Assembly: GCF_014205255.1 (NCBI RefSeq)
Contig: NZ_JACHNE010000001.1
Span: 1,426,001-1,490,000 of the forward strand
DNA: 64,000 nucleotides
Reading direction: 5' to 3'
Origin: Streptomyces caelestis
Lineage (GTDB): Bacteria; Actinomycetota; Actinomycetes; Streptomycetales; Streptomycetaceae
Shown here: positions 7,365-55,636 of the stretch, piece by piece
Position numbering within the stretch: the first letter of the stretch is position 1
Layout of the letters: the number at the start of each line of letters is the position of its first letter
Notes under the pieces: model-generated
Told to the model about the DNA's origin: nothing
Databases searched by the model: none
Seen by the model: the letters and a program-made list of their open reading frames with translations, nothing else
Position numbers and translations under genes: made by a program

Positions 7365-7381
7365 CACAGTGGACGCGAGCA
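7365..7381 (-). repeat. 3' arm of the pre-23S processing stem
   Basis: CACAGTGGACGCGAGCA here is the exact inverted repeat (17/17) of 10512-10528, immediately before the 23S 5' end. The two arms enclose the whole 23S gene and would form the long stem that RNase III cuts in rRNA precursors. Confidence 0.85.
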
Positions 7382-7389
7382 ACTGAGGA

Positions 7390-12343
<4,954 letters not shown>

Positions 12344-29600: not shown

Positions 29601-29910
29601 CGATCTCTTCTCCTGCTTGATGGGGGTCGGGCGACGGCGGGCCGTAGCCTCCGCCGCCTGGGGTTTCGATGACGAGTACGGCCTTGCGCTCCAGGAGGGC
29701 GTTGGTGGCGCCCCTCGTGCCCATGCGCACGGTGTCGACGGGGTCGCCGGAGCCGGCCGGCAGGGTGCGGACGCCCTGGACCGCCGCGTCGGCGGAGCGG
29801 GCCGGACTGTCCGTCAGGGGCTCGTGTGTGAGCAGCCAGCCGTCCGGGCGACGCGCGACGATGTCGGTGAAGGAGTCGTCCCGGTCGACCCGGAACTGCC
29901 GGCCCGTCAC
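29581..29910 (-). pseudogene. Remnant of ATP-dependent 5-oxoprolinase (HyuA head fused to HyuB tail)
   Basis: The 109-codon open frame begins like the N-terminus of hydantoinase A/5-oxoprolinase: 'FTDIVARRPDG', 'SPARSADAAV', 'GDPVDTVRMGT' and 'ATNALLERK' (residues about 14-76). Directly after 'LLERK' it continues 'AVLVIETPGGGGYGPP', the extreme C-terminus of the hydantoinase B part. A normal enzyme has about 1200 residues, so roughly 1100 internal residues are missing with the frame kept. The phosphate-binding 'DRGGTFTD' of the family reads 'DRDDSFTD'. It cannot be catalytic. It lies between cvnC and cvnD and overlaps the cvnD start by 20 bases. Confidence 0.85.
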
Positions 29911-29934
29911 GTCAGCACCCCGCTTCCGCGCTGC

Positions 29935-30330
29935 TCACAGCGCCCGGAGGCCGTTGATCACGTCGCGCAGAATACTCTCGTCCGGCAGCTCGGCAGGGGG
30001 TACGGGCCGGTTCACGTGGACGAACTCCGCGTCCACGAGGTCTCCGACAAGGACCCGTACCACCCCGATCGGCAGGTCGAGTTCCGCTGCGAGTTCGGCG
30101 ACCGACTGCGGGGCGTCACGACACAGTTCGACGATGTCCACATGCTCCGGGGAGAGCATGTGGTCCGCTTCCGGGTCATCCGCGTGCGGTTCCGTGACCA
30201 CGACCGCGATCAGGTCCAGGCGGTGCTGGCCCTGACTGCTGGTGCGGCCGCGCGTCATGGCGTACGGACGGACGACCGGTCCGGCCTCGTCGTCGAACCA
30301 GTGCCTTCTTCCCTGACCGTCAGCGCTCAT
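29935..30330 (-). CDS. cvnC: Conservon DUF742 protein CvnC
   Basis: The 131-residue soluble protein has the DUF742 winged-helix pattern: 'VRPYAMTRGR' near the N-terminus, a 'SPEHVDIVELC' segment, 'SVAELAAELDLPIGVVRVLVGDL' as a helix-turn-helix-like block, and the closing 'ESILRDVINGLRAL'. In conservons it links the roadblock protein and the GTPase. It follows cvnB by nine bases. The distance to cvnD is unusually long because of the 5-oxoprolinase remnant. Confidence 0.92.
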   Translation of the reverse strand: MSADGQGRRHWFDDEAGPVVRPYAMTRGRTSSQGQHRLDLIAVVVTEPHADDPEADHMLSPEHVDIVELCRDAPQSVAELAAELDLPIGVVRVLVGDLVDAEFVHVNRPVPPAELPDESILRDVINGLRAL

Positions 30331-30339
30331 GTCATCCCA

Positions 30340-30774
30340 CTACCCGCCTGCGGGCAGATCGGTGCGCGGAGCGGCGCCCAGATGCACGCCTACTCGCTTC
30401 ACGAGGAGCGTCATCTCGTAGGCGACCTGGCCGACGTCCGAGTCGGCGTCCGAGAGGACGGCGAGGCAGCTGCCGTCACCGGCGGCCGTCACGAACAGGA
30501 AGGCGTCGTCGAGCTCGACGACCGTCTGGCGGACGTTGCCGGCCTCGAAGTGGCGTCCCACACCCTTGGCGAGGCTGTGGAACCCGGAGGCGACGGCGGC
30601 CAGGTGCTCGCTGTCCTCCCTGGTCAGATCCCTGGACACGCCCGTCGGCAAACCGTCGCCGGAGAGCACGAGGGCCTTGCGGATGCTCGCGACGCGGTCC
30701 ACCAGGTCGTCGAGGAGCCAGTTCAGCTCCCCCTTGTTGCTTGCGGTGTGGCCGGTCGCCTTCGGTGCGGTCAT
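30340..30774 (-). CDS. cvnB: Conservon roadblock/LC7 protein CvnB
   Basis: The 144-residue protein belongs to the roadblock/LC7 family: 'ELNWLLDDLVDRVASIRKALVLSGDG' at the start, 'LAAVASGFHSLAKGVGRHF' in the middle, and a C-terminal strand-helix unit. Such proteins act as scaffolds or GTPase-activating partners of MglA-like GTPases. The ATG at 30774 overlaps the cvnA stop (ATGA), implying translational coupling with the sensor. Confidence 0.93.
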   Translation of the reverse strand: MTAPKATGHTASNKGELNWLLDDLVDRVASIRKALVLSGDGLPTGVSRDLTREDSEHLAAVASGFHSLAKGVGRHFEAGNVRQTVVELDDAFLFVTAAGDGSCLAVLSDADSDVGQVAYEMTLLVKRVGVHLGAAPRTDLPAGG

Positions 30775-33700
30775 CGACCGTCCCCCTCTGTCGTTCCTTG
30801 TCGTGCTGTACCGCTGTGGGCGGCATCGCCCTCTGCGTTCTCCTCGCGGCCGCGCTGCCAGCCGCGCTGGAGCGAGGCCATACGGCTGCGTACTTCATCG
30901 GCGTCGCGTTCGGCGGGCTCGGCTCTGTCCTCCGTACGCGGCTCGGCTCCTCGTTTCAGCTGCGGAGCCAGGTTGGCCTGGCGGACGCGCCGGGGCAGCG
31001 GCGCGGTGCCGGAGCCGGGCTCGTGCGGTGCGGAGCCCATGGCCTGTCCCCGTCGTGCGGAGCCGCGAGCCGAGCCGGTCTCCTGGGGCATGGCGCCGGG
31101 GCCGGTCACCTGGCGCGGCGGACCGCCGGTGGCCCCCGGCGTGAGGCCGGGGCGGCCCGGGTCGCTCGAGGCGATCTCCGCGCGGCGTGTCCGCGTGGGC
31201 AGTGTGGGCGGCTCCGCCCCCGGGCCGGACGAGGCCGGTGATTCGGTGCGGTCGTCGTTACGGCCGGTGGCGCCGATGCCCTGGCGACCGGACTCCGCCC
31301 CCCGACGGCGGGCCGGCAGGGGTGGCGGTGTGCCGGGCCGGGTTTCGCCTCGCCGGCTGCCCGTCGAGGGGTCTTCGGTGCGGCGGCGGACCGGAGGCGC
31401 GGACGCGGGCTCCGCCCCGGACCGGCCCGTGGGCCCGCTCACGGAGTCGTCGCCCCGGCGACGGGCAGGGAGCGGGGAGGTGCCGCCCGAGTCCGCTCGG
31501 CCGGTGCCCGTGGTGGTCTCCTCGTCCGTCCTGCCCCGCCGGGGGCGCTGCTCGGTGACCGGGCGCCCGTGCGAGCTGACCAGTTTGGGAGTGTGGCGGC
31601 GCGGCAACTGGACCGGGTCGTCGTCGGTGTCGGTCCGGTCGTGTGCGCTGTGGGCGTCGGCGGCCTGGCGCGGGTCGGGGCGGCGGCCGGCTGTCTCGTC
31701 CTGGGCGCGGGTGAGGGAGGGGCGGGGGCGGAACAGGTCGCCGTGTTCGCTGTCCTCGTCGTCGAGAGCGCCGGGGAAGTCGCCGATGACATCCAGGTCG
31801 ACGGGAGCCTCCAGCTCCACCGGTCCGTCCAGGAGGGAGGCGGGCAGGCCGGGCCGCTGCGCGGACCCCTGGGACAGCGCGGCGCGGCGGCTGTCCTGCG
31901 GCTCGCCCTCCTTGGCCAACTGGGGGCGGTCGAGCCGGAACCCGATGCCGTTCGTGTCCGGGACGTCGTCCGTCAGCAGGGCGTCCGGGATGAAGACGAC
32001 GGCGGTCGTGCCGCCGTACGGGGAGGGTTGCAAGGAGACGCGGATGTTCTGCCGCTGGGCGAGACGGCTGACCACGAACAGGCCGAGCCGGTCGGTGTCG
32101 GACAGCTCGAACTCCGGGGTCTCGGCGAGCCGGAGGTTGGCGTCCAGGAGGGCTTCGGCGGCCATCCCGAGACCACGGTCGTGGATCTCCAGGGTGAAGC
32201 CGTTCGCGACCCGCTCGCCCAGGACCTGGACGGCGGTGTGCGGCGGGGAGAAGACCGTGGCGTTCTCCAGGAGTTCCGCCACGAGGTGCGTGATGTCGGC
32301 GACGGCCGGGCCGGTGACGGCGATACGCGGAAGGCGGCGGACCTCGATGCGCTCGTAGTCCTCGACCTCGGCGACGGCGGCGCGTACGACGTCCATGAGC
32401 TGGACGGGCTTGCGCCACTGGCGGGAGGGCGCGGCGCCGGAGAGGATCACGAGGCCCTCGGCGTGCCGGCGCATGCGGGTCGTCAGGTGGTCGAGGCGGA
32501 ACAGGTCGGCGAGTTCATCGGTGTCCTCGGTCCGGCGCTCCATGGCGTCGAGCAGGGTGAGCTGCTTGTGGAGCAGGACCTGGCTGCGGCGCGCGAGGTT
32601 GACGAAGACCTCGGAGACGCCGGCGCGCAACTCGGCCTGTTTGACGGCGGCTTCGACGGCGGCGCGCTGGAGGGTGTTGAGGGCCTGGCCGACCTCGCCC
32701 ATCTCGTTCTTGTCGTACTCCAGGCGCGGGACCTCGGTCTCCACGTCGACCTGCTCGCCCGCCGACAGGCGGCGCATCACGCTGGGCAGCCGCACGCCGG
32801 ACGCCTCGTGGGCCTCCAGACGCAGCTGCCGCAGATCGCGGATGAGGGTGCGGCCGACGCGCACGGACAGGAAGAGGGAGACCAGGAGAGCGAGCAGGCC
32901 GAGTACGCCGGCGATGACCGCCTTGGCGATGACGCCCATGGCCACCGGTTCGACGCGGTTCTGGTAGCGGTCGTTGGCCTGGTCGTTGAGCGTGCCGAGT
33001 TCGTCGAGCACGTTGCCGGCGGCGCTGTCCCAGCTCTTCGCGGTGACGCCGCGCGGTGTTCCGCCGGCGGAGGAGACGGCCGCTTCCTCGGCCACGCGCA
33101 GCGGAGCGGTGGAGGCGTTCTTCCAGAAGCTCTGGTAGCGGTCGCGTTCCGAGACGGGCAGCAGCGGGAGGTTGGTGTCGTACATCAGGGTGCGCTGTGC
33201 CACGAGGTCGGAGATGTCACGCTCCTCGGAGCGGGAGATCTCTCCGACGATCAGGGCGGAGCCGAGGAGAGCGTCCTCGCGGGAGAGCAGTTCGCGGGCG
33301 CGGGCGAGATTGACCAGCGCGCGGTACTGCTTGTCCAGTTCCACGTTGTCGACGACGTGGAGGTTGGCGAGCAGGACGTAGCACGGGTCGACCAGCCGGT
33401 TGTAGAGGTCGAGGGCCTGGGAGCGGTCGACGGTGCCGTCCTCGACACTGCGGCGCAGCGACTCGATGCCGTCGAAGGCGTCCAGGACCGCGGTCAGCCG
33501 CTCGTCGGTGTCCGCGCCCATCGCGTCGCGCACGTCCGGATTCCGGGCGTTGTCGCGGATGCCGCCGACGGCCTCGTCGGTGGCGGTCCGGCTGCGCCGG
33601 AGCGCGGCGAGCCCGTCGGAGGCACGGGGGTCGGCCAGGTAGACGAGGGTCTGGCGGCGTTCCTCCTGGAGGACACGGACGGTGTCCTCGATGGGATAGC

Positions 33701-33854
33701 CGATCTTCTCCACCACGGACGACACGTTGAACAGGTCGCCCGCCTCACGTCCCGTGAGCACGGTGGCGAAGGCCCAGATCGCGGTCAGGGACACCAGCGG
33801 CACGAGAAGCAGCGCCACGATCTTCCGGCGGATGGACTTCCCGCGAAAGCGCAT
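30771..33854 (-). CDS. cvnA: Conservon sensor-kinase-like membrane protein CvnA
   Basis: The 1027-residue protein starts at ATG 33854 with GGGGGAGG just upstream. Domains: membrane helix 12-34, a large extracytoplasmic nitrate/nitrite-sensor-like helical domain (about 40-300), second helix about 305-330, HAMP, a dimerisation-like helical region, an HATPase domain with the N-box 'ELLENATVFSPP' (about 525) and 'DRGLGM', then a 400-residue Pro/Arg/Ser-rich disordered tail. It is the sensory component of the conservon. No canonical phospho-accepting H-box HExxxP is visible, as usual for CvnA. Divergent from a small membrane-protein gene across about 420 bp. Confidence 0.92.
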   Translation of the reverse strand: MRFRGKSIRRKIVALLLVPLVSLTAIWAFATVLTGREAGDLFNVSSVVEKIGYPIEDTVRVLQEERRQTLVYLADPRASDGLAALRRSRTATDEAVGGIRDNARNPDVRDAMGADTDERLTAVLDAFDGIESLRRSVEDGTVDRSQALDLYNRLVDPCYVLLANLHVVDNVELDKQYRALVNLARARELLSREDALLGSALIVGEISRSEERDISDLVAQRTLMYDTNLPLLPVSERDRYQSFWKNASTAPLRVAEEAAVSSAGGTPRGVTAKSWDSAAGNVLDELGTLNDQANDRYQNRVEPVAMGVIAKAVIAGVLGLLALLVSLFLSVRVGRTLIRDLRQLRLEAHEASGVRLPSVMRRLSAGEQVDVETEVPRLEYDKNEMGEVGQALNTLQRAAVEAAVKQAELRAGVSEVFVNLARRSQVLLHKQLTLLDAMERRTEDTDELADLFRLDHLTTRMRRHAEGLVILSGAAPSRQWRKPVQLMDVVRAAVAEVEDYERIEVRRLPRIAVTGPAVADITHLVAELLENATVFSPPHTAVQVLGERVANGFTLEIHDRGLGMAAEALLDANLRLAETPEFELSDTDRLGLFVVSRLAQRQNIRVSLQPSPYGGTTAVVFIPDALLTDDVPDTNGIGFRLDRPQLAKEGEPQDSRRAALSQGSAQRPGLPASLLDGPVELEAPVDLDVIGDFPGALDDEDSEHGDLFRPRPSLTRAQDETAGRRPDPRQAADAHSAHDRTDTDDDPVQLPRRHTPKLVSSHGRPVTEQRPRRGRTDEETTTGTGRADSGGTSPLPARRRGDDSVSGPTGRSGAEPASAPPVRRRTEDPSTGSRRGETRPGTPPPLPARRRGAESGRQGIGATGRNDDRTESPASSGPGAEPPTLPTRTRRAEIASSDPGRPGLTPGATGGPPRQVTGPGAMPQETGSARGSARRGQAMGSAPHEPGSGTAPLPRRVRQANLAPQLKRGAEPRTEDRAEPAERDADEVRSRMASLQRGWQRGREENAEGDAAHSGTARQGTTEGDGR

Positions 33855-34272
33855 GGCCTCCCCCAGCTCGGGCCCCCGGCTACCGGGGGTACACATGTGC
33901 GTCAACAAACGGCGCGAGCCTACTACCGACGGCCAGGGAACTCGAAGCCGGGCCGGAAGCTGAACTTCCGCGCCAGTCCCGGGGCATGTGGAGTTGTCCG
34001 GGCATTGCGGGAGTTGTCTCCCCGAAACCGATGGTGGCCATGCCGGACAACGCCCGTGATACGGCCGGGCGGTTGGCTGAAATTTTTCGGTTTCCGGGAA
34101 TCTTCGTGGCGGGTTGTTCGTCCTTCTCTGTGGGAAATGGAGGCGGAATCGGCCACAGCGGCCGCATCCCGCATCCGGGCGGCGTAAAACAGCGCAAGCC
34201 GGGCAGCCGCTGGGGAAGACGGGTCTTCGGATGCGAGTGAGCAGTCTGCCGGCGGTGGGGAGTGACACGGTG
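33855..34272. promoter_or_regulatory. Divergent promoter region of the conservon
   Basis: This gene-free stretch separates cvnA from the membrane-protein gene. It includes a locally AT-rich segment near 34079-34105 (GAAATTTTTCGGTTTCC), unusual for the window and a plausible promoter or nucleoid-protein binding area. No specific hexamers are called. Confidence 0.4.
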
Positions 34273-34833
34273 ATGGGCACGGCGGAGCGGCGCGGGGCGC
34301 CCAGGGCGGGCGGGGTGCAGGTGACGGCTCAGGAAGCCGAAGAGACCGATCGGGACAGTCCGGCCGACGAGGCGGAGGTCACGGCTCGCGAGTCGGGGGT
34401 TCCGGCTGACAAGGTGGGCCGTGACGTGCGCGAGCAGCAGTACTACCGGCCCCTGTGGGTCGAGGAGCCGGCGCGGCGGCGCCGGTTGCCGGATCCGGTA
34501 CGGACGGCCGCCGTGCGAGCGGTCCTCCTCATCGCTCTGACGCTGATTCAGGCCATGGTGGCCTTCCTGTGCACGATGGCCGGCTCCTGGCTGGCCTTTC
34601 CCATGGTGATCAGCAGCGTGGTGAGCACGATCGCGGCGACCTGGGGCGCGCTCGACGTATGGGTGACGCGTCAGGTCTGGAACCAGCGCCACGGCGTGGT
34701 GTCCATGCCGAGCAGCACGGCACGGGCCCTACGACGCGAGCGGCGCCGGGCCCGACGGCAGCAGCGCGCCACCGAGCGGGCGCAGGCGCGAATACGCCGA
34801 CGGGGCGGGGCTGGGCAGTTGTCCCACTCGTAA
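34273..34833 (+). CDS. Small two-helix membrane protein of unknown function
   Basis: From ATG 34273 the product has 186 residues; ATG 34231 would add 14. The N-terminal half is acidic and soluble. Two membrane helices follow ('VLLIALTLIQAMVAFLC' and 'FPMVISSVVSTIAATWGAL', about residues 85-140), then a strongly basic Arg-rich tail (about 150-180). I do not know the family. It is divergent from cvnA; genes of this type beside conservons suggest a membrane accessory, which is only inference. Confidence 0.7.
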   Translation: MGTAERRGAPRAGGVQVTAQEAEETDRDSPADEAEVTARESGVPADKVGRDVREQQYYRPLWVEEPARRRRLPDPVRTAAVRAVLLIALTLIQAMVAFLCTMAGSWLAFPMVISSVVSTIAATWGALDVWVTRQVWNQRHGVVSMPSSTARALRRERRRARRQQRATERAQARIRRRGGAGQLSHS

Positions 34834-35053
34834 GGAGGGACGACGGGCACCGGCGAGGCGACCGGACAGAGGGCCGGACGCTCGACGGTGTGGCGGATCC
34901 GGTTCGCCCCGCTCCACGTCGCGCAGCAGGCGGGTGGCCCCTGCGGCCGACAGCCGAGCCCGTACCCCTCACCGCACGACCGACTGCGCCCTCTCCTCCC
35001 CGGCGCTCCGGGCGAGTTCGCGTCTCGCCCGCATGAACGGGCGGGGCGGTCCA

Positions 35054-36300
35054 TGGCCAGCACGGCGGTCGTACGGCCGTCCCGCTCGTACCGGCGCGAG
35101 TACGACATCGACGACCTCGCGAACCGCCTCCGCTTCTTCAGGCGGCTGGTGGCGACCGAGTCCGGCCGGGTCGTCGGCACCGGCAGGGCGGACGTCGACA
35201 GCCCGGTGGGTACGAGCCCGCGGGCGTGTGCGGGCTGATCACGCCTTGGAACTACCCGCTCCTGCCGACGGCCTGGAAGGTTGCCCCGGCCCTCGCGGCC
35301 GGCAACACCTTCGTGCTCAAGCCGAGCGAGCTGACCCCGCACACCGCGATCCATCTCTTGCGGCTGCTGGCGGAGGCCGGGCTTCCGCCGGGTGCCGGCA
35401 ACCTGGTCCTCGGTGCCGGCCTGGAGGCGGGTGCCCCGCTCGGCGACCATCCGGATGTGGACCTCGTCTCGTTCACCGGCGGTGTGCAGACCGGCCGCCG
35501 GCTGATGGCGGCCGTCGCGGGGACGGTGAAGAAGGTGGCCCTCGAACTCGGCGGCGAGAACCCCGACATCGTCTTCGCCGACGCCGGCTTCGGGGCCGCC
35601 GTCGACATGGCGCTGACCGCCGTGTTCCCGCATTCGGTGTAGCTGCCGGGCGACCTCGCCGGCCGGCCGCGGCTCGACCTCGTGCTCTGCGGGGGCGCGG
35701 CTGCTCGTGGAGGACTCGCTGCACGACCGCTTCGTCGACGAGGTCGGCGGGCGCGGGACATCCGGCTGGGCGGGCCGTTCGACGAGTCGGCCCGGACCGG
35801 TCCGCTGATCCCGGCCGCGCACCGGGACAGGGTCGAGGCGTATGTGGCGAGAGGCCTGGCGGAGGGTGCGGCGCTGCGCTGCGGCGGCTCGCGCCCGGAC
35901 CGGCCGGACCTCGCCGACGGCTTCTCCTACCCGCCCACCGTGCTGGACTAGTGCGCCGCGAGCATGTCGGTGGTCCGCAAGGAGTCGCTCGGTCCGGGCC
36001 TCACCGTCGAACGGTTCTCGGACGAGGCGGGAGGCCGTCCGCCTCGCCAACGACCCGGTCTACGGCCTCGCGGGTGCGGTGTGGACGAGTGACGAGGCCC
36101 GGGCGGCGCGCGTCGCGGCCCGGCTGCGGCTCGGCACGGTGTGGATCAACGACTACCACTACGTCCCGCAGGCGGAGTGGGGCGGTTTCAAGCAGTCCGG
36201 CTTCGGACGCGAACTCGGGCCCGCGGGGCTCGCCGAGTACCGCGAGACGAAGCACATCTGGCGCAACATCCGTCCCACACCCCAGGGTTGGTTCGACTGA
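35054..36300 (+). pseudogene. Aldehyde dehydrogenase pseudogene (betaine-aldehyde dehydrogenase-like)
   Basis: Fragments in shifting frames together follow one ALDH. They are 'REYDIDDLANRLRFFRRLVA' near 35095, 'LITPWNYPLLPTAWKVAPAL' to 'VKKVALELGGENPDIVFADA' (35226-35640), the catalytic 'CSAGARLLVED' (Cys codon at 35683), 'IRLGGPFDESARTGPLIPAA' (about 35760-35820) and 'GTVWINDYHYVPQAEWGGFK' near the end. Lesions: about 100 N-terminal codons lost; a 1-base frameshift near 35217; a TAG at 35640 followed by about 40 bp of extra sequence before the Cys; a frameshift near 35745; a TAG at 35949-35951 where Glu is expected; another shift near 36028. No active enzyme can be made. It precedes the APC permease. 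Confidence 0.9.
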
Positions 36301-36338: not shown

Positions 36339-37901
36339 ATGAAACCGACCGCGCAGCCCACCGACCAGCACGGCCAGGACGACGCCGAACTCACCGAGTT
36401 CGGCTACAGACCCGAACTCAAACGCACCCTCGGCAACTTCCACACCTTCGCCGCCGGGATCAGCTACATCTCGATCCTGACCGGCACCTTCCAGCTGTTC
36501 TACTTCGGCTACGGCAGCGGCGGCCCCGCCTACTGGTGGTCGTGGCCGATGGTCTTCGCCGGCCAGTTCATGGTCGCCCTGTGCTTCGCGGAGCTCGCCG
36601 CCCGCTATCCCGTCGCGGGCTCCGTCTACAACTGGTCCAAGAAGATAGGCAATCCGCATCTGGGCTGGCTCGCCGGCTGGATGATGTTGATCGCCTCGAT
36701 CGTGTCCATATCGGCCGTCGCGCTGGCCTACCAGTTGACGCTGCCGCAGATCTCGTCGGTCTTCCAGTTCGTGGGGGACGGCACCGGTACGTACGACGTG
36801 GCGACCAACGCGGTCATCCTGGCCGCGGTGTTGATCCTGTTCACGACCCTCGTGAACGCCTTCGGCGTCAAGTTGATGGCCCGGATCAACACGGCGGGCG
36901 TGTTCATCGAGTTGATCGCCACTGTCGTACTGATCGTCCTGTTCGCGGTCCACATCACGCGCGGCCCCCAGGTCGTCATGGAGACGCAGGGCACCGGCGC
37001 CGGCTACGGAACCGGGTACTTCGGTGCCTTCCTGGTCGCCTCGCTGGCCTCGGCGTACGTCATGTACGGCTTCGACACCGCCGCCTCGCTCGGCGAGGAG
37101 TCCCTGAACCCGACCCGCAACGCCCCGCGCGCGATCATCCGGGCGATCGTCGCCTCTTTCATCCTCGGCGGCCTGATCCTGCTGCTCGCGCTGATGAGCG
37201 TGTCCAGTCTGCAGGGCGAGAAGCTGTCCACGGACGGCCTGCAGTACATCGTCCTGGACGTGCTGGGTCCGACGGCCGGCAAGGCGATGCTGTGGTGCGT
37301 GCTGATCGCCGTGACGGTGTGCGCGTTGGCGGTGCACACGGCGGCGGTGCGGCTGGCGTTCGCGATGGCCCGGGACAACAACCTGCCCGCGTCCTCGAAG
37401 CTGGCCAAGTGCCACCCGCGGTTCCAGACGCCGGTCCTGCCGACCGTGATCATCGGGATCCTCGCGCTGGCGATCCTGGTGGTCAACATCCGCCAGCCGC
37501 AGATCTTCACCGTCGTCACCAGCATCGGCATCATCATGATCTACCTCGCCTACCTGGGCGTCACGGTGCCGCTGCTGGTCGCCCGGCTGCGCGGAAAGTG
37601 GCAGCCCGGGGGCGAGGGCCGGTTCTCGCTGGGCCGCTGGGGGCTGCCGGTCAACATCGTGGCCGTGCTGTGGGGCGCGGCCATGACGCTCAACCTCATC
37701 TGGCCGCGGGCCGCCGTCTACAACGCCGCGGCTCCCTACCACTGGTACCTGCGCTGGGGCGCGGTGCTGTTCGTCGCCGTCATCGCGGGCGGCGGCTTCG
37801 CCTACTACTGGTTCGTCCAGCGGCACAAGACCGGCGTGCTCGCCGAGCACCGCTCGGCCGCCACGGCCACTGCTCCCGCCGCCACCCCGGCGGCCGACTG
37901 A
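36339..37901 (+). CDS. APC-superfamily amino acid/amine permease
   Basis: The 520-residue protein has about 12 membrane helices and APC family features: 'FGYRPELKRTLGNFHTFAAG' at the N-terminus, 'FAELAARYPVAGSVYNWSKK' for helices 2-3 and 'YGFDTAASLGEESLNPTRNA' (about 240-260). It most resembles the BAT1/GABA-permease type that imports amino acids, choline-like or amine substrates by proton symport. The frame is intact, with GAGGA before ATG 36339, yet the flanking dehydrogenase and oxidoreductase genes are dead, so its catabolic partners here are lost. Substrate cannot be read. Confidence 0.85.
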   Translation: MKPTAQPTDQHGQDDAELTEFGYRPELKRTLGNFHTFAAGISYISILTGTFQLFYFGYGSGGPAYWWSWPMVFAGQFMVALCFAELAARYPVAGSVYNWSKKIGNPHLGWLAGWMMLIASIVSISAVALAYQLTLPQISSVFQFVGDGTGTYDVATNAVILAAVLILFTTLVNAFGVKLMARINTAGVFIELIATVVLIVLFAVHITRGPQVVMETQGTGAGYGTGYFGAFLVASLASAYVMYGFDTAASLGEESLNPTRNAPRAIIRAIVASFILGGLILLLALMSVSSLQGEKLSTDGLQYIVLDVLGPTAGKAMLWCVLIAVTVCALAVHTAAVRLAFAMARDNNLPASSKLAKCHPRFQTPVLPTVIIGILALAILVVNIRQPQIFTVVTSIGIIMIYLAYLGVTVPLLVARLRGKWQPGGEGRFSLGRWGLPVNIVAVLWGAAMTLNLIWPRAAVYNAAAPYHWYLRWGAVLFVAVIAGGGFAYYWFVQRHKTGVLAEHRSAATATAPAATPAAD

Positions 37902-37910
37902 AGGAGGACC

Positions 37911-38045
37911 GTGAGTACGCATGAGTTCGACTGCGTCGTGGTCGGCGGCGGCACCGCGGGCAACGTCACCGTCACCCCGTGCGTCACGACCATGATGATC
38001 GGCGAGAAGTGCGCGGATCTCCTGCGGGAGGACGCCCGAGCCTAG
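37911..38045 (+). pseudogene. Remnant of GMC oxidoreductase (choline dehydrogenase type), 44 codons
   Basis: A perfect AAGGAGGA site and GTG start at 37911 open a 44-codon frame: 'HEFDCVVVGGGTAGNVTV' is the FAD-binding N-terminus of glucose-methanol-choline oxidoreductases, joined directly to 'TTMMIGEKCADLLREDARA', the family's C-terminal end ('...MIGEKAADLIR'). Around 450-500 internal residues are gone, with the frame preserved. Expression signals are intact, so a short peptide could be made, but no enzyme. It follows the APC permease by nine bases, and its stop shares a CTAG with the convergent SMC-like gene. Confidence 0.85.
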
Positions 38046-41000
38046 GACACCGGGCGTTTGTACATCCTGGTGGCCGTGATCTCGCTGTGTCCCGCCTCCC
38101 CCGCCTGGGGCTGCTGCGGCAGCCCCGGGCGGAGGTGTTCCTCGACGCTGATGTACTTGAGGCCGGCCCGCAGGTCGGCGTCGTTGCGCATGCGGATGAC
38201 CAGGGGGAACTCGGCCAGCGCGGTCGTGTCGAACAGGCCCGTGGTGTAGAGGAGCTGGACGCCCAGGGCGTCCGACACCGCCCGCTGGAGCTCCAGCAGG
38301 TACGTGGCGTTGGCGCGGCCGATGGGGTTGTCGAGGAACAGCGTGCCGGCGTGCCGGTGCTTGTCGCGGCCCCGGTCGTTCGAGCGCAGCGCGGCCATCG
38401 TGCAGTACAGGGCGATCGCGGCGGTGAGGAGCTGACCGCCGGAGAAGACGTCGCCCATCTGCCCGACGGGGACGCGCTCGGCGCGCAGCACCGCGTCGGG
38501 CTTGAGGATCTCGACGGCGACGCCCTTGGGCTGCAGGGCCGCGGCGACGCCCCGCAGCAGCAGGGACATGCCGTCCCGCCGCAGGTCGGAGTTCTTCTTG
38601 ACGGCGGCACGGGTCGCCTCGTCGATGACCTCGCCGAGTCGTTCGGTGAGCGTGGCCTGGTCGGGCTCCTCGAAGCGGATGCGGAGGAACTCCTGTCCCG
38701 ACCACTCGCCGAGGCCCTCCGGGAGGCGGGAGAGGCGCTGTGCGGAGCGCAGGGTGGCCAGGGCCGACTCGACCAGGCCGCGCAGCCGGTCGACGATCGA
38801 GTCGCGGTTGCGCTCCAGTTGCTCCAGTTCGTCGGTCAGGACCCGGAGCCGGGGCGCGAAGGCGTCGGCCCACTTCTGGGCGTGTTCGGGCAGTGCGGAG
38901 GCGGGCAGTTCGCGGATCTGCTGCCGTGCCGGGGTGCGGACCTGTTCGTAGCGCGTGGAGTTGGCGTGCCGGACGAGGATGTCGCTGGCCTCGCGGACGG
39001 CGGCCTCGGCGGCGGACAGGTCGGCGGCGCAGCCGCGCAGGGAGCGGCGGGCTTCGGCGGCGGACTGCCGGGCCTCCTCCGGGCTGCCGGGGTACGGCTC
39101 GGTCTCCTCCTGCTCCTCCTCCGTGGCGTGCTCGCGCAGCAGGTCGCGGAGCATGACGGCGATCTCGTCGAAGCCGCTCGCCGCGTCCTCGGCGGCACGG
39201 TGGGCGTCGAGGAGCTCGGCGTGCGCCTCGCGTGCCTGGTTCAGCGCCTCGGTGTGGGAGGCGAGTTCGGCCGTGGCGGTGCGCAGCAGGGTCTGCGCGT
39301 GCTCGGCGTCGCGCGGCTGGAGGTCCTCGGGGAGGTCGGTGTGGGCCTCGCCGTCCTCGGGCGCGAGCCGTTCGGCCTCGCCGCGCAGCCGCCCGAGCTG
39401 CTCGCTCGCGCTCGACATACGGGTCTCCAGGAGCTGCACCAGCTCCTCGGCGCGGGCGGCGGCGGCCTGGCGGCTGGGGCCGTCGGAGCCGTCGGGGGAT
39501 TCGAGGAGCTGTTCGGCGCGCGTACGGACCTTGTTGCTCAGCCGGTCCAGCTCCGCGCGGGCCGCGCTCTCGTCGCTCTCGGCGCGGGCCTGTTCGGCCC
39601 GCAGGTCGGCACCGACGCCGACCTTCTCGTACAGCTGTGAGGCCGCCCGGTAGGCCTCGCGGAGGGCGGGCAGGGAGGCCTTCGGGGTCCGGGCGTCGTC
39701 CTCGGGCACGTCGTCGGGGGCGCCGGCGATCTCGGAGCGCTCGGCGCGCAGCGCGCGGGCGGTGCGGCGGGCGTCGTCGGCGGCGCGCTGGGCGGCCCGC
39801 CGGTCCTCGTCGGCGGCCCGGGCCCGCTCCAGGCAGGCCTGGGCGCTCGCCTCGGACTCGGCCGCCTCGTCGGCCAGTTCGCGCAGCTTGACCTGCCAGC
39901 CGGCCCGCTCGCGCAGCCGGAAGGCGAGCCCGGCGAGGGCGTCGGCGGAGCGGCGGGCCTTCTGGGCGGCGTCCTGCCGCTCGTCCCGGACGCGCGCGGC
40001 TTCGGCGGCGGCCTCGTCGGCCTCGGCCCGCACCGCGCGCGCCTCGGCCAGCTCGGCTTCCGACTCCTCGGCGAACGCGCGGGTGTCGTGTGCCGCCTGG
40101 GCCAGTTCGGCGAGCCGGCCGGCCGGGCAGCCGGTGCGCCAGGAGGCGAGCCGGGCGGCCAGTTCCCGGTCCTTGCCGAGCCGGGCAGCGAGTGTGCGGA
40201 TCTCCTCGTCCCGCTCGGCCGCCCGGGCGCGCAGCGCCTGGCGTTCCTCGTCGGCGGCGTGCTCGTCGTGCATGGCCGGGTTCGGCGGGACGAGGAACAC
40301 GTCACCGCTGTCGCTCTCCGGGGCGGGCGTCGGGGCGAGCAGGGCGGCGGCGGTGCCGACCGCCACGGCGGACCGGGGCAGCAGCGCCGCGTCGCCCAGC
40401 GCCTCCCTGGCGCGTGCGTGGGAGTCCGGGTCGGTGATGATCACGCCGTCGACCAGCTCGGGCCGGGCGGCCAGCACGCGCGCGTGGTCGGCCGGGTCGA
40501 CGGCCTGGGCGAGGTAGCGCCAGCCGGGCAGCGCGGGGATGCCGTGCTCGCCGAGGAACTCGACCGTGGCCAGCACGTCCGGGCCGGGCGGCAGCAACCC
40601 GCCGTCACCGAGCGCGCCGAGGATCCGGGAGTCGTCGGCGGCGGCCGTACGCAGTTCGAAGAGCTGCCGTTCGGCGGAGGCGACGGCGTCGTCGAGCAGT
40701 TCGCGCAGATCGTCGGCGAAGCGGTCGAGCTCCTCGGGGCTGAGCCCCTGTCCGCCCGGGGCGGGCCGGGTGGCCGGTTCGCTGTCCGTGCCGTGGCGGG
40801 GCTGCGGGATGCCCGGGCGGGTCTCGGAAGTCAGGCTGAGGAGTTCCGCGAGCCGCTCCTCCCCCGCCAGCGCCTCGGCGGTGCGGCGCTCGGCCTCGTA
40901 CGACCGCTCGGCCGCCGTCGCCGCGTCCGCCGCGCGGGCCGCGGTCAGTTCCGCGCGGGTCTCGGCGGCGGCGGCCTCGCGCGCGTGCTCGCCGGCCCGG

Positions 41001-42670
41001 CGGGACGCCTCACGGGCCGAGTCCCAGGCAGCGACGGCGGTCTTCTCGGCGTCGCTCGCGGCAAGGGCCGCACGGGCCGGGTCGGCGTCGGGCGCGCTGT
41101 CGTCGAGCCAGCCGGCCCGGACGGCCTCGGCGGTCTCCTGCTCGACCTCGGCGAGGCGCTGCTTCAGATGCCCGACTTCGCTGCGGGCCCGCTGCGCCTG
41201 CGTGGCGGCGGCGGTGGAGTCCCGGTAGGCGGCGTCGCTGACCTCCTGGAGGGCGTCGGAGCGCTCCTCCTCCTCGTTGGCGTGGTTCTCGGCCTTCTCC
41301 GCGGCCGCGTGCAGGGCCCGTACGAGGTCCACGGCGGCCTTGGAGCGGGCGGCGAGCGCCGGGGCGGCGTCGCGCTCCGCCTCCTGGATCGCGGCGGACA
41401 CCCGGGCGACGCGGTCGGCGGCGGCGCGGTGGCGCAGCACGACCTCGGCGGCCTGCCACGCGGCGTACAGCGTGCGGGCGTCGGCGAGCTCGCGCTTCTG
41501 CGCGGCTGCGGACTTCTCGGCCGCGGCGAGCGCCAGCGAGGCGTGCCGGTAGGCGAGTTCGGCGGAGATCAGCGCGCTGCGCTCGCGGGCCGCCTCGGCG
41601 TGCGTGACGGCGTACGCGGCGGCGGTGACCCGCTGGGCCAGGTCGGCGGCCCGGACCCGCTCCCGCACGCCGCGCGCGGAGAGCCTGCGCGCCAGGGTCC
41701 GCGTACGGCGCTCGGCTCCGGCGTGGATGTCACGCGCGCGGGAGCGGGCCTCGGCGGCCTCGACGATCCGTCCGAGCAGGTCGACGGACCCGGCGGTGAA
41801 GTCGCGTTCGGCGATCAGCTCGGCACGGCGGCCCAGCTTGTTGCCGAAGCCGCTGACCAGGTCCGCGAGCCCGTCGGTGTCGCGGGTGTCGGTGACGGCG
41901 CGCAGCAGCAGGTCGGTGAAGTCGGCGTCCTTCTTGACCGCGAAGAGACCGGCGGCCTCGCCCTCGTCGGCGTTCATCTCCCGCTGGTATCGGAAGAGTT
42001 CGGGGTCGAGTCCGAGGTCGCCGAGGTGCTCGATCCAGCGGTCGTGGATCTCCTCCCAGTGCACCTCCAGGTGCGGGTACGTCTTGCCCGCCTCCGTGAG
42101 GGCGTCGCGGAAGCCCTTCATGGTGCGACGCCGGCCGCGCGCGCCCGACTGGCCCTCGACCGACGCCCGTACGGCGGTGGACTCGGCCACGGGGAGGTTG
42201 TCGAGGCTCAGTCCGGGCCCGGGCCGGAAGGAGTACCAGGCCTCGGCGAACTTGCGCGGGTCGTTGGAGACCTGCCGCCCGCGCCACTCGCTCACCTTGC
42301 CGACGACGACGCACTCACCGGTCAGCACGTGCTGCCACTCCAGCGCGACGTGGCCGCAGTCGTCGGCGAGCAGGAACTTGCGCAGCACGCCGGAGCTGGC
42401 GCCGCCGAGAGTGTTGCGGTGGCCCGGCAGCATCACGGAGAAGATCAGCTTGAGCAGGACCGACTTGCCGCCGCCGTTCTCCAGGAAGAGCACACCGGCG
42501 GGCGCGGGCCGGCGCGGTGGGCCGACGGGCTCCTCCTCGAAGAACTCCGCCTGCGTGGGCGCGGGGTCGGGCACGGGCTCGCCCACACCCCGCAGGTCGA
42601 GCACGGTGTCGGCGTAGCGCGCACCGGCCGGCCCGATGGAGTAGAGGCGGACCCGGGACAGCTCGTACAT
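38042..42670 (-). CDS. SMC/MukB-like ATPase of a condensin-like complex (MksB/JetC-like)
   Basis: The 1542-residue protein has ABC/SMC head halves at both ends and long Ala/Glu/Arg-rich coiled coils between. The N-head has the P-loop 'LENGGGKSVLLKLIF' (about residue 66). A small globular hinge-like region sits near the middle (about 670-790, 'HGIPALPGWRYLAQ', 'LVDGVIITDPDSH'). The C-head has the signature 'FSGGQLLTAAIAL' and Walker B 'TLFLDNPIGRAN'. The catalytic Glu expected after Walker B Asp is Asn. This is the third gene of a kleisin-KITE-SMC operon, so a DNA-loop-extruding or plasmid-sensing complex is inferred. No nuclease (JetD/MksG) gene follows; the next sequence is the convergent GMC remnant. 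Confidence 0.8.
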   Translation of the reverse strand: MYELSRVRLYSIGPAGARYADTVLDLRGVGEPVPDPAPTQAEFFEEEPVGPPRRPAPAGVLFLENGGGKSVLLKLIFSVMLPGHRNTLGGASSGVLRKFLLADDCGHVALEWQHVLTGECVVVGKVSEWRGRQVSNDPRKFAEAWYSFRPGPGLSLDNLPVAESTAVRASVEGQSGARGRRRTMKGFRDALTEAGKTYPHLEVHWEEIHDRWIEHLGDLGLDPELFRYQREMNADEGEAAGLFAVKKDADFTDLLLRAVTDTRDTDGLADLVSGFGNKLGRRAELIAERDFTAGSVDLLGRIVEAAEARSRARDIHAGAERRTRTLARRLSARGVRERVRAADLAQRVTAAAYAVTHAEAARERSALISAELAYRHASLALAAAEKSAAAQKRELADARTLYAAWQAAEVVLRHRAAADRVARVSAAIQEAERDAAPALAARSKAAVDLVRALHAAAEKAENHANEEEERSDALQEVSDAAYRDSTAAATQAQRARSEVGHLKQRLAEVEQETAEAVRAGWLDDSAPDADPARAALAASDAEKTAVAAWDSAREASRRAGEHAREAAAAETRAELTAARAADAATAAERSYEAERRTAEALAGEERLAELLSLTSETRPGIPQPRHGTDSEPATRPAPGGQGLSPEELDRFADDLRELLDDAVASAERQLFELRTAAADDSRILGALGDGGLLPPGPDVLATVEFLGEHGIPALPGWRYLAQAVDPADHARVLAARPELVDGVIITDPDSHARAREALGDAALLPRSAVAVGTAAALLAPTPAPESDSGDVFLVPPNPAMHDEHAADEERQALRARAAERDEEIRTLAARLGKDRELAARLASWRTGCPAGRLAELAQAAHDTRAFAEESEAELAEARAVRAEADEAAAEAARVRDERQDAAQKARRSADALAGLAFRLRERAGWQVKLRELADEAAESEASAQACLERARAADEDRRAAQRAADDARRTARALRAERSEIAGAPDDVPEDDARTPKASLPALREAYRAASQLYEKVGVGADLRAEQARAESDESAARAELDRLSNKVRTRAEQLLESPDGSDGPSRQAAAARAEELVQLLETRMSSASEQLGRLRGEAERLAPEDGEAHTDLPEDLQPRDAEHAQTLLRTATAELASHTEALNQAREAHAELLDAHRAAEDAASGFDEIAVMLRDLLREHATEEEQEETEPYPGSPEEARQSAAEARRSLRGCAADLSAAEAAVREASDILVRHANSTRYEQVRTPARQQIRELPASALPEHAQKWADAFAPRLRVLTDELEQLERNRDSIVDRLRGLVESALATLRSAQRLSRLPEGLGEWSGQEFLRIRFEEPDQATLTERLGEVIDEATRAAVKKNSDLRRDGMSLLLRGVAAALQPKGVAVEILKPDAVLRAERVPVGQMGDVFSGGQLLTAAIALYCTMAALRSNDRGRDKHRHAGTLFLDNPIGRANATYLLELQRAVSDALGVQLLYTTGLFDTTALAEFPLVIRMRNDADLRAGLKYISVEEHLRPGLPQQPQAGEAGHSEITATRMYKRPVS

Positions 42671-42714
42671 GGCGGACTCTCGTAAGTCTTCGTGAGATGG
42701 GGGGCAGGAGGAGT

Positions 42715-43596
42715 TCAGGAGGAGTGGAACGGCAGCCCGGCGTCGGCGACCAGATCCAGGTCGTCGTTCTCCTCGGGGGGCAACAGCGTCGGTGTGCCGT
42801 CGGTGACCGGGACGACGCCCAGCTCGAGCAGTTCGGCGAGGGCGGCGCTGCCGGCCATGTCGCGGACCTGGAGCTGGTAGCGGGCGGTCGTGCGGTAGGT
42901 GCCGCCGTTGTCGTCGCCCGTGCGCTGCAGAAACCCGGAGTCGGTGAGGAACGCCACGGCCTTGGCGACGATGCCGGTGGTCGAACCGGCGAGCCGGCGC
43001 GCGTCCTTCGTGGCGCCGGTCGAGCTGCGCCGCACCCAGATCCGCCAGGCGGCCTCCAGGCCGGGCGCGTCGGTGGCCGGGTCGGTGTTCGCGCCCTGTT
43101 CGGCGGCGCGCTCCTCCAGACGGCGGCAGGCCTGGCGGACGAAGGCGTCGACGCCGTTGACCGTGACGCGGCCGATGTAGCCGTCGTCGGCGAGGTCCTC
43201 GGGACGCGGGAACGCCATGGCGGCGACGGCGAGATGGGCCAGCCCGTGCAGGAACCGGTCGCCGCCGTCGGCGGACGTACGACGCGCGTAGTCGCCCATG
43301 CGGACGGCGAAGACGGAGTCCTCGGCGGCGGTCACGGCCATGCCCGCGCGCGGGGACACCTCCAGCACGATCAGCCCCAGCCCCGTCGCCACGGCGTCGG
43401 CGAGTCGCGCGAACGGCGAGTCCTCGCGGTAGCGCCGCAGCAGGTCCGCGTACTCCTGGTCGCGGGCGGGCTGGAGCTTGGGCTGCAACCCGAAGGAGAC
43501 GAGCCGCGCCGCGTCGGCGGCGTCGGCGGGTGTGACGGCGGGGGTGGCCGCCGGGGCCGGGCCCTCCGACTCACTCCACTCGACGTGCTCGCTCAC
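42715..43596 (-). CDS. KITE-like winged-helix subunit (MksE/JetB-like)
   Basis: From GTG 43596, seven bases after AAGGAG, the product has 293 residues; an in-frame GTG at 43617 would add seven. After a Pro/Ala-rich leader two helical/winged segments appear: 'YADLLRRYREDSPFARLADAV' through 'LAHLAVAAMAFPRPEDL', and a second ('GIVAKAVAFLTDSGFLQRTG') ending in a beta-wing 'YRTTARYQLQVRDMAG'. Size, tandem winged helices and place between kleisin-like and SMC-like genes match the KITE subunits of MukBEF/MksBEF/Wadjet complexes. Sequence resemblance alone is weak, so the call relies on context. Confidence 0.68.
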   Translation of the reverse strand: MSEHVEWSESEGPAPAATPAVTPADAADAARLVSFGLQPKLQPARDQEYADLLRRYREDSPFARLADAVATGLGLIVLEVSPRAGMAVTAAEDSVFAVRMGDYARRTSADGGDRFLHGLAHLAVAAMAFPRPEDLADDGYIGRVTVNGVDAFVRQACRRLEERAAEQGANTDPATDAPGLEAAWRIWVRRSSTGATKDARRLAGSTTGIVAKAVAFLTDSGFLQRTGDDNGGTYRTTARYQLQVRDMAGSAALAELLELGVVPVTDGTPTLLPPEENDDLDLVADAGLPFHSS

Positions 43597-43631
43597 GGTC
43601 GGGACTCCTTGTGCCACTTGTACGTGCTCAT
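43593..43631 (-). CDS. 12-codon bridging reading frame between kleisin-like and KITE-like genes
   Basis: ATG at 43631 overlaps the stop of the kleisin-like gene (ATGA) and the TGA at 43593 overlaps the KITE GTG start (GTGA). It encodes 'MSTYKWHKESRP', and the AAGGAG used by the KITE gene lies inside it. It could carry terminating ribosomes across the gap; whether the peptide itself matters is unknown. Confidence 0.35.
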   Translation of the reverse strand: MSTYKWHKESRP

Positions 43632-45154
43632 GCCGCTTCCGTCCGATCCGCCGCCATGCCCGCCGCGTCCAGCAGCGCGGTGCCGACGATCAGGTCCGCC
43701 CCGCCGAACTCCGGATCCTCCAGCTCCGTCCCGTCGTCCACGGCGAACAACAGTTTCTGCTCCCCCTGCCGATAGGCGGTGCCGACCGGCGGACTCGCGG
43801 CATGCACCGCCAACAGGGCCACCAGATACGGCAGCTCGGGATCCCGCCGCCGGGCCTCGGCCAGCAACCCGGACAACCGGCGCGGCGCGTCCGCCGGCAG
43901 GTCGAGCAGCTCCTGCGCGGCCGCCATCTGCTCCTCGCTGAACCGGCTGTCGTCGGGCGTGGCGATGAGATCCGGCTCGGGCATCTCCGCACCCAGGTGC
44001 TCCCGCTCCACCGGCGGCGTCAGCAGTATGTCGACGAGGTCCCCCACCCGGACGGACACCGGCGTACGCAGCCCCGTACCCCGCCCGAAGAAGGCGTCCG
44101 TGACGCGGACGGCCTGCTCCAGCGGCAGGGGGAGGACGGGGGCGACGAGGTGGCCGTACAGGTCGATCCCCGCGGTGGCCGCCGGGGCGGCGAAGGCCTG
44201 CCGGTCCTGCTCGGCGCGGAACAGCGGTCCGGCCTCCAGCAGCCGGGACTGCAACTGCGTGTGCCGCCGGATGCAGTCCTTGACGATGTCGACGAGCTCG
44301 GCGGCGCGGCGCTTGTGCTCCGGGTCCTCGGACTCGTCGCGGGCCTTGCGGATGTTGGTGAGGATCGCGTTCTCGTGGCGATAGCGGTCGGCCACGTGCT
44401 CCAGGGCCTCGGCGATCATGTCGGGCACGGTGGTGAGCCAGTCCACCGCGCGCACGTTGCGCCGGGTCGCCTCCAGGGCGCGGCGCAGGGTCTCCGAGTA
44501 CTGCACGGTGCGGTAGCGGGCCTGTTCGGCCGCGAGCTGGGCGTCGGCGAGCCGGCCGCGGCTGATCAGCACCTCCAGCTTGACCTCGGCGGCGATCTGC
44601 GCGCTGGTGACGTCCGTGTCGAGGGCGCCGACGAGGACGTTGACCGCCTCGTCCGTCGTCCGCAGGTAGACCGTGCCGCCCGGGCCCGGGACCTCCTCGA
44701 TCAGCTTGAAGTCGTAGTCACGGCGCACATAGGTGCCGTCCGCCCCGAACGTGCCGTACACCGCGCGGAAGCCGCGGTCGACGCTGCCGACGTTGATCAG
44801 GTTCTCCAGGACCCAGCGGGCCACCCGCTCGTGCTCGGCGGCGGGCCGCTGCGGTGCCTGGGCGGCGATGCGCGGGATGAGGCGGGCGACGATCTGGTCG
44901 TGGTCCGCGCCCGTGTCGAAGTCCATGTTCAGGGTGACGAGGTCGATCGCCGCGAGGGCGACCTCCGCCATGCCGTACACCGAGTACTCACCGGCGAGGT
45001 TGGCCTTGCGCGCGTCGAGGTCGTGCAGCGGCGCGGTGCAGGCGAGCGCGCGCAGTCGCCGCGCCAGGCCCTCGTCGGCGGCCGGCCCCAGGGCTGGGCG
45101 CGGCCCCGCGCTGAGCTGGGGCGGAACGCTGTCCGTCGATGCAGGCGAAGTCAC
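43628..45154 (-). CDS. Kleisin-like subunit (MksF/JetA-like)
   Basis: Read from GTG 45154 it has 508 residues; TTG 45184 would add ten. The N-terminal part is winged-helix-like ('YSVYGMAEVALAAIDLVTLN', about 65-85; 'ERVARWVLENLINVGSVDRG'). A long helical region (about 190-330, including 'QARYRTVQYSETLRRALEATRR') and a C-terminal globular part ('GDLVDILLTPPVER', then 'RRDPELPYLVALLAVHA') follow. This matches the plan of MukF/MksF-type kleisins. TAGTCT ends seven bases before the GTG and no Shine-Dalgarno is present, so a leaderless transcript starting at the GTG is plausible. It is the first gene of the operon, divergent from nothing but 57 bp from the GntR gene stop. Confidence 0.7.
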   Translation of the reverse strand: MTSPASTDSVPPQLSAGPRPALGPAADEGLARRLRALACTAPLHDLDARKANLAGEYSVYGMAEVALAAIDLVTLNMDFDTGADHDQIVARLIPRIAAQAPQRPAAEHERVARWVLENLINVGSVDRGFRAVYGTFGADGTYVRRDYDFKLIEEVPGPGGTVYLRTTDEAVNVLVGALDTDVTSAQIAAEVKLEVLISRGRLADAQLAAEQARYRTVQYSETLRRALEATRRNVRAVDWLTTVPDMIAEALEHVADRYRHENAILTNIRKARDESEDPEHKRRAAELVDIVKDCIRRHTQLQSRLLEAGPLFRAEQDRQAFAAPAATAGIDLYGHLVAPVLPLPLEQAVRVTDAFFGRGTGLRTPVSVRVGDLVDILLTPPVEREHLGAEMPEPDLIATPDDSRFSEEQMAAAQELLDLPADAPRRLSGLLAEARRRDPELPYLVALLAVHAASPPVGTAYRQGEQKLLFAVDDGTELEDPEFGGADLIVGTALLDAAGMAADRTEAA

Positions 45155-45211: not shown

Positions 45212-45907
45212 TCAGCCGTCCTCGCCGACGCGCCGCCGGTACACCTCGACGACCCGTTCCAGCGAGTCGTCGAGGTACCCGGCGAGCAGTCCCTCGGCCT
45301 TCTCGCGGTCTCCCACCTGAAGAGCCTCAAGAATGGCGATATTTCGCGCGATGTACGGTTCGTGCAGCCGCTGCGGCTCGTCCACCACATGGAAGGCCAG
45401 GCGCAGTTCGGCGAAAACACTCCGCATCAACTCCTCGGTACGCTCGCTCGCCGCGAGGGCGACCAGTTCCCGGTGGAAGTGGATGTTGGCCGTGCCCACC
45501 CCCTTCCAGTCGCCTTCCCGAGCCGCCCGCCGCCCTTCCTCCACGGCACCGTTGAGCCCGTCGAGGCCGTAGGGCGGCTCCCCGAGGCCGCGGACCACGG
45601 CGCACTCGACGAGCCGGCGCGTGCGGTAGATGTCCTCGACGTCCTCCACCGTCAGCACCCGGACGAAGACGCCCCGGTTCAGCTCGTGAACGAGCAGGCG
45701 TTCGTGCGTGAGCAGCCGGAACGCCTCGCGCAGTGTGTTGCGGGAGACGCCGAGCGCGCCGCCGATGCTGTCCTCCGAGAGCCGGGTACCGGGCGGGAAG
45801 TAGCCCTCGGCGATCCGGCTCCTGAGGATGTCGGAGACCCGTTCGGCGGTGCTGGTGCGCCCCAGGAGAGCCCGGTCGTCGGCGAGGTCCTTCAGCTGCT
45901 CTGCCAT
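45212..45907 (-). CDS. GntR-family regulator, FCD subfamily
   Basis: The 231-residue protein starts at ATG 45907. The N-terminal winged helix has 'VSDILRSRIAEGYFPPGTRLSED' and 'ALGVSRNTLREAFRLLTHERLL'. The C-terminal FCD domain (about 80-220) keeps the metal-ligand pattern 'NIHFHRELVALA' and 'EALQVGDREKAEGLL'. It is divergent from the MFS-DUF1445-pxpABC operon, and an operator of FadR form lies between them, so it most likely represses that operon and responds to 5-oxoproline or a related acid (inference). Confidence 0.88.
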   Translation of the reverse strand: MAEQLKDLADDRALLGRTSTAERVSDILRSRIAEGYFPPGTRLSEDSIGGALGVSRNTLREAFRLLTHERLLVHELNRGVFVRVLTVEDVEDIYRTRRLVECAVVRGLGEPPYGLDGLNGAVEEGRRAAREGDWKGVGTANIHFHRELVALAASERTEELMRSVFAELRLAFHVVDEPQRLHEPYIARNIAILEALQVGDREKAEGLLAGYLDDSLERVVEVYRRRVGEDG

Positions 45908-55337: not shown

Positions 55338-55636
55338 GGGAAACAGCCTCACATCAAGCGTCGACGCAACCGGGGACGTGTACTACCTGGCCGCGCGACA
55401 ACACGTCGGAGTGCCCGCCGTTTCCTGCTTGCTGTAGACCATCTTCCTCTGCCTCTCGTCGGTGGCCCTTGCGGACCGCTTCACGGCCCGCGCGGTGCGG
55501 CAACATCTGCCCAGCCATCACGTGCGTGAACCACGTCGTCATGATGACTCGGCATTTCCGTCCGCCGCGACCGAATTTCGGCGGCCCCGTCCCGCCTCCC
55601 CCGTTTTCGTTGTTGTACCAGGTCAGACTGGTCGGC
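55338..55636. other. Non-coding gap between HEAT and ankyrin genes
   Basis: About 300 bp with no supported gene. It should contain the promoter of the HEAT gene and the end of the ankyrin transcript. No strong hairpin or operator palindrome was seen. Confidence 0.4.

Follow-up and report, generated by a model that had tools for sequence, protein, structure and literature searches.

Within a 64,000-nt window of the Streptomyces caelestis genome (the whole stretch of DNA analysed here), three minus-strand open reading frames at positions 38042-45154 encode a kleisin (A), a tandem winged-helix KITE protein (B) and a structural maintenance of chromosomes (SMC) ATPase (C), with the features of the locus collected in Table 1. 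This gene order had been proposed for the same interval in a preliminary description of the DNA, and it is borne out by the reading frames, by profile matches to JetA3 and JetC3 and by modelled folds resembling MukF and MukE/JetB. For A, an alternative upstream TTG start at 45184 would lengthen the protein to 518 amino acids. The kleisin matches the PADLOC JetA3 profile (PDLC00567) with an E-value of 1.7e-188, whilst C matches the JetC3 profile (PDLC00588) with 1425.8 bits: JetC3 models were the only PADLOC models to match C, which gave no match to JetC1 or JetC2, to MukB in Pfam, to any Pfam SMC family at E ≤ 1 or to an SMC_N-type model in Pfam or NCBIfam. With a cut-off of E ≤ 1e-3, neither Pfam, PADLOC nor NCBIfam assigned B to a family; the protein is 31-55% identical to its positional counterpart, encoded between A and C, from four loci that do carry JetD (L083, L085, L089 and L090). 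The AlphaFold2 model of A (predicted local distance difference test score, pLDDT, 73.6) has MukF as its best Foldseek match (9gm7_C, E 5.7e-5, probability 0.99) and that of B (pLDDT 66.6) matches both MukE (3rpu_G, E 9e-3, probability 0.99) and JetB (8dk1_E, E 1.9e-2, probability 1.00), and thus the predicted folds of both proteins appear related to those of kleisin and KITE subunits. Sequence searches against solved relatives yielded an unconvincing best E-value of 0.93 for A and nothing at E ≤ 0.01 for C. In a crude view of its composition, C displays ATPase motifs at both ends, helical-looking arms and, around residues 600-800, a stretch rich in Pro and Gly that may represent the hinge. Judged by these matches, the trio is made up of type III Wadjet relatives close to known families: the earlier impression of subunits distant from such families does not hold for A and C, and to speak of a "diverged fourth condensin class" is to exaggerate how far the sequences have moved, since the trio is a nuclease-free group within Wadjet type III.

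Table 1. Features of the kleisin-KITE-SMC locus in the S. caelestis window, together with the type II Wadjet system found elsewhere in the same genome.
Feature	Position	Strand	Remarks
A, kleisin, JetA3/MukF-like	43628-45154	minus	508 aa from GTG
B, KITE (tandem winged-helix), JetB/MukE-like	42715-43617	minus	300 aa
C, SMC ATPase, JetC3-like	38042-42670	minus	1542 aa
HEAT-repeat-like protein, candidate associated gene	53919-55352	minus	same strand as trio; 477 aa
GntR/FCD regulator	45212-45907	minus	directly upstream of A; PF00392, PF07729
Amino-acid permease	36339-37901		between C and disrupted aldehyde dehydrogenase gene
Disrupted aldehyde dehydrogenase	34888-36300	plus	PF00171; pieces 35226-35642 and 35842-36300, in different frames
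Conservon-like cluster	28995-34280	minus	NIT/histidine-kinase-like ATPase, roadblock/LC7 and ATP-binding genes
JetC2 and JetD2, Wadjet type II, same genome	L102 (G000:C1:7888000-7907900), genes 5458-9669 and 9585-10964		JetC2 1367 bits; JetD2 E 3.1e-140

Relatives of the locus were collected by searching genome contigs with A, which gave at least 560 matches; the best 80 were kept (all from Streptomyces, 91-97% identical) and ten divergent loci were added (nine from seven other genera, one from Streptomyces), resulting in 90 core loci. Both B and C are present in 89 of these, with the remaining locus running into the end of its contig. A core locus was regarded as complete when it contained A, B, a nearly complete C and at least 1500 bases beyond, as was the case for 81 loci; the other nine were excluded owing to a contig end or an interrupted C frame. 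Searching with a JetD profile hidden Markov model (HMM) revealed no JetD gene in any of the 81 complete core loci, nor in any of the 90 core loci. This HMM was built from six JetD genes located beside distant relatives of the trio, which it recovers by construction, but it also detects JetD in a locus outside the build set (L086) and was positive in 13/13 loci fetched later, though these had been chosen by a JetD3 search. Thus, the lack of a JetD/MksG gene beside the trio, as first noticed in S. caelestis, extends to its relatives: an ordinary JetD is not conserved next to these genes in any complete core locus.

The distribution of the trio was analysed through genome-wide counts that rest on kleisin A, with B and C sought in the fetched loci. 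A match to A was found in 193/199 Streptomyces genomes including S. caelestis (192 of the 194 good ones, with one best match reaching just E 2.1e-71) and in all 61 Streptomycetaceae genomes, at an identity of at least 74% in 60 of them and of just 27% in the genome G592. In a sample drawn from the whole order, and overlapping with that of the genus, A was matched in 132/132 Streptomyces genomes and in 2/15 genomes from two other families (44% and 32% identity), whilst across the phylum 18/396 genomes gave a match, comprising 12 Streptomyces and six others at 26-42%. JetD3, by comparison, is strongly matched in only 14/199 Streptomyces genomes (14 more weakly, E 6.5e-10 to 7.9e-4) and in 4/61 Streptomycetaceae genomes (two more weakly, E 4e-4 and 6e-4). 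Thirteen of the 14 strong JetD3 loci from Streptomyces were fetched: every JetD3 has a B and a C gene of its own beside it, and A could be seen in 12 of the loci, the remaining one starting at a contig edge; the fourteenth is L085, which contains A, B and C. Complete JetABCD systems of type III in Streptomycetaceae are separate accessory loci, and the nuclease-free kleisin shows a core-gene pattern where the JetD-bearing systems are patchy. Their position on the chromosome offers a weak contrast only: the outer 10% holds 2/32 core and 2/6 accessory loci, counted in single-contig genomes from the listed matches with most sizes rounded and rotated assemblies uncorrected. In two genomes JetD3 lies near both contig ends (G150:C1:66624-67625 and 8038764-8039765, with the same score; G090:C1:15696-16697 and 9222617-9223438, the second copy being shorter), as if a type III Wadjet were located in terminal inverted repeats. 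Locus L086 (11680-14984, minus strand) presents adjoining JetA-like and JetD-like frames with no B match and a short JetC-like match, and is a rearranged or decayed type III locus.

One alternative to a loss of cutting is a defence complex in which restriction of circular DNA or phage persists by means of a nuclease that is encoded elsewhere and not recognisable as JetD, a possibility already raised in the preliminary description: the close JetD-bearing relatives are all plasmid-defence systems by family, and the S. caelestis genome does carry a JetD2 gene at 7.9 Mb. This gene corresponds to the single PF11796 (JetD2-type) match of the genome, at 7.898 Mb and hence 6.4 Mb from the trio, in a separate type II system (the scan of this locus covered the JetC2 and JetD2 genes); the same genome gave no PF09983 match and no JetD3 match. 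In a census of JetD1, JetD2 and JetD3 across the family using PDLC00594, PF09983 and PF11796, PF09983 was matched in 7/61 and PF11796 in 21/61 genomes, and together with JetD3 some JetD was detected in 26/61, leaving 35 of the 60 genomes with the core kleisin without a match to any of the three types. A JetD acting in trans can accordingly be ruled out as a general answer, and the option of a nuclease elsewhere is weakened for nucleases of JetD type, other nucleases not having been searched for. The near-universal presence of the trio in the family is also unlike the patchy occurrence of JetD-bearing systems, and beyond A, B, C and the HEAT-like gene described below no gene is common to at least five of the ten divergent loci in the fetched flanks, the rest of the genomes not having been searched for nucleases. 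We therefore regard restriction through a separately encoded nuclease as rather unlikely.

Conservation of the trio was examined at the level of motifs, substitution rates and phylogeny. The Walker A (ENGGGKS), signature (FSGGQ) and Walker B (LFLDNPIG) motifs are invariant in 79/79 aligned core C sequences. ABC ATPases usually carry Glu at the second acidic position of Walker B (DE); the LDNP sequence, with Asn in its place, occurs in all 79 core C sequences as well as in six JetD-bearing C sequences (L083, L085, L087-L090). The median ratio of non-synonymous to synonymous substitution rates (dN/dS) across 65-80 Streptomyces loci amounts to 0.076 for A, 0.148 for B and 0.129 for C, with values of 0.15-0.16 for the HEAT-like gene, the GntR regulator and the permease in the flanks and 0.21 for a transporter; a value of 1.2 for the conservon kinase gene was discarded as unusable, having come from partial alignments and a truncated frame. 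A decaying, functionless Wadjet remnant would account for the missing JetD, but is scarcely credible given the open frames, invariant motifs and low dN/dS of the three genes. Trees were calculated for A (35 rows, 17 core) and, by a quick method, for C (34 rows, 17 core), with the core rows chosen from the core loci: in both, the core rows form one side of a branch (support 99/100 for A; for C 100, from the Shimodaira-Hasegawa-like approximate likelihood ratio test only) and all JetD-bearing rows used fall on the opposite side. From this we infer a single ancestral loss of JetD before the spread of the family as the simplest, and likely, reading; it falls short of proof due to midpoint rooting of both trees and the long branches of several JetD-bearing rows. 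Clade-specific residue switches that might mark a lost JetD contact were not found in A, and C exhibits three conservative ones.

In addition to the trio, a single further gene of the window recurs throughout the divergent loci: the gene for a HEAT-repeat-like protein is present in 10/10 of them, the other window genes tested in at most four. An all-against-all comparison of the 123 genes called in these ten loci likewise revealed, apart from A, B, C, the HEAT-like gene and antisense frames, none present in five or more. Both results apply to the fetched flanks, which cover some 5 kb on the upstream side (2.7 kb in L094) and 5-8 kb on the downstream side. The HEAT-like protein is matched in 60/61 Streptomycetaceae genomes, with the only miss being G592, which is also the genome without the core kleisin; this assembly is 93% complete, and one gap could remove both genes together. 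Where both genes lie on one contig, the HEAT-like gene is found upstream of A on the same strand in 57/57 genomes at a median distance of 6.5 kb, which shrinks to 55-219 bp in eight genomes from three genera that branch first within the core. In the S. caelestis window the interval to A is filled by the GntR gene, a transporter gene, D-glutamate cyclase, LamB/YcsF and carboxyltransferase genes and two glycosyltransferase genes. Across the phylum, 14/396 genomes gave a match, these being the 12 Streptomyces already counted for A and two others that match more weakly, and the gene was not seen in 19 accessory loci (upstream flanks of 1.6-5 kb, with no measure in four). The Pfam HEAT_2 match lies below the cut-off (24.7 versus 27.7 bits), although four of five homologues match at E ≤ 0.01. 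Two results weigh against a tie to the trio: profile self-comparison gave no internal repeats above 1% probability (using a shallow alignment with an effective number of sequences, Neff, of 1.8), and paralogues located elsewhere were without A, B, C or JetD matches in 6/6 fetched loci, indicating that an association with SMC genes is no general property of the HEAT family. The protein is thus possibly a partner of the trio, a lead suggested by gene content and position. A quite improbable explanation is a chromosomal SMC complex that mainly repairs DNA or supports replication forks, in place of bulk folding, and is loaded by the HEAT-like protein in an Nse5/6-like manner: the fold match in its support is one among many winged-helix rows, and nothing was seen that links the locus to repair genes.

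The trio can be compared with three known systems. With Wadjet type III it shares strong JetA3 and JetC3 matches, the A-B-C order and a B protein homologous to the one encoded at the corresponding place in JetD-bearing loci; in the latter, however, C is followed by JetD3 (as seen in 13 JetD3 loci as well as in L083, L085 and L087-L090), whereas it is absent from the core trio, and JetD-bearing loci are patchy where the core kleisin is near-universal in Streptomycetaceae. MksBEF and MukBEF, of which MukBEF is not known to include a nuclease, are likewise kleisin-KITE-SMC trios, with MukF the closest modelled fold for A and MukE/JetB for B, but C lies outside the MukB/MksB sequence family and matches JetC3 profiles alone. 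Smc-ScpAB, the studied Streptomyces condensin, also combines an SMC ATPase with kleisin and KITE subunits and would share with the trio a task in chromosome organisation (here proposed), yet it differs in that C gives no Pfam SMC-family match and that the three genes of the trio form one cluster. SMC is the Streptomyces condensin in PMC8410768 and PMC13121528, with no second complex named in the parts considered. According to PMC10482375, 42% of Actinobacteria carry Wadjet, which is enriched towards Streptomyces chromosome ends; the parts considered do not mention the core JetD-less trio. Nor did searches among open-licence papers bring up a description of this trio or of a nuclease-free member of the type III branch.

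Taken together, the locus holds a complete, Wadjet III-related kleisin-KITE-SMC set that is free of JetD in 81/81 complete streptomycete loci, and we favour, somewhat ahead of doubt, a condensin-like role in which the complex organises the DNA of its own cell. The lack of a cutting gene in any complete copy examined makes such organisation likelier than the destruction of foreign DNA, and a family-wide, conserved and nuclease-free complex fits a task on its own chromosome; of the three functional options originally listed for the trio, the organiser hence fits best, on grounds of conservation. A plasmid-defence SMC complex would then likely have lost its nuclease once and become a housekeeping DNA organiser, possibly with the HEAT-like protein as partner. 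How it might operate, we infer from its studied relatives: together with JetA and JetB, dimers of JetC would take up ATP and clamp DNA, followed by loop extrusion as in studied Wadjet and MukBEF, and in the absence of JetD the motor would go through loading, extrusion and release. Since a stalled motor would have no JetD to trigger, DNA would end up looped, compacted or positioned instead of cleaved. In studied Wadjets, JetD cutting requires ATP and a working JetC ATPase, and JetABC is thought to confer the sensing of circle or shape and of size (PMC10586767). The latter would also suit a complex that restrains plasmids without cutting, by extruding and compacting them so that they are silenced or lost, as would the intact ATPase motifs; we consider this improbable, since the core-gene distribution points to a task on self-DNA.

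Precedents for the organiser role are mixed. MksBEF of P. aeruginosa is assumed to act on the chromosome (PMC7083940), a precedent qualified by the presence of MksG in Pseudomonas operons (PMC10123090); MksB of Borrelia burgdorferi promotes long-range contacts on a linear chromosome, with MksE and MksF absent there (PMC10406323), and Mks of M. smegmatis clusters near replisomes, as told in PMC13121528. Weighing against a chromosomal organiser, and in favour of restriction by a nuclease encoded elsewhere, MksBEFG from C. glutamicum is reported to act on plasmids and on non-chromosomal DNA only (PMC7083940). A more far-reaching version of the organiser role, namely a new condensin lineage in which a type III Wadjet lost its nuclease in the streptomycete ancestor and became a universal second organiser of linear chromosomes with a HEAT-repeat partner, combining KITE and HEAT-type subunits, we put forward as tentative and on present evidence doubtful. 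What appears new from the comparisons made here is a type III JetABC without nuclease that belongs to the core genes of an entire family and possibly has a HEAT-like protein as partner. One family carrying both accessory JetABCD and near-universal nuclease-free JetABC amounts to a natural experiment on the open question of how SMC motors divide the folding of own DNA from the destruction of foreign DNA. Were the trio to act on the chromosome, the well-studied Streptomyces would possess a second, apparently unstudied condensin-like complex: smc phenotypes would then be worth revisiting in double deletions, with the HEAT-like neighbour as a specific new partner candidate.

Scans for promoters, terminators and Rfam families gave nothing useful at the locus. 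A conserved gene standing in for JetD beside C was also rejected, as the neighbours in L093 and L094 are serpin genes and, within the fetched flanks, nothing beyond A, B, C, the HEAT-like gene and frames antisense to them recurs in at least five divergent loci; the serpin genes, found in a single streptomycete genus, lie on the downstream side (L093 12314-13447; L094 11470-12612). The GntR regulator reported beyond the kleisin gene is indeed present and occurs in 80/90 core loci versus 1/10 divergent loci: it is a flank gene outside the conserved unit. On the other side of the trio, the supposed GMC-oxidoreductase remnant was not found, with the pieces instead belonging to an aldehyde dehydrogenase that is separated from C by the permease gene; since these pieces lie in different frames, they represent a pseudogene or reflect sequencing errors. 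Further along lies the conservon-like cluster on the minus strand.

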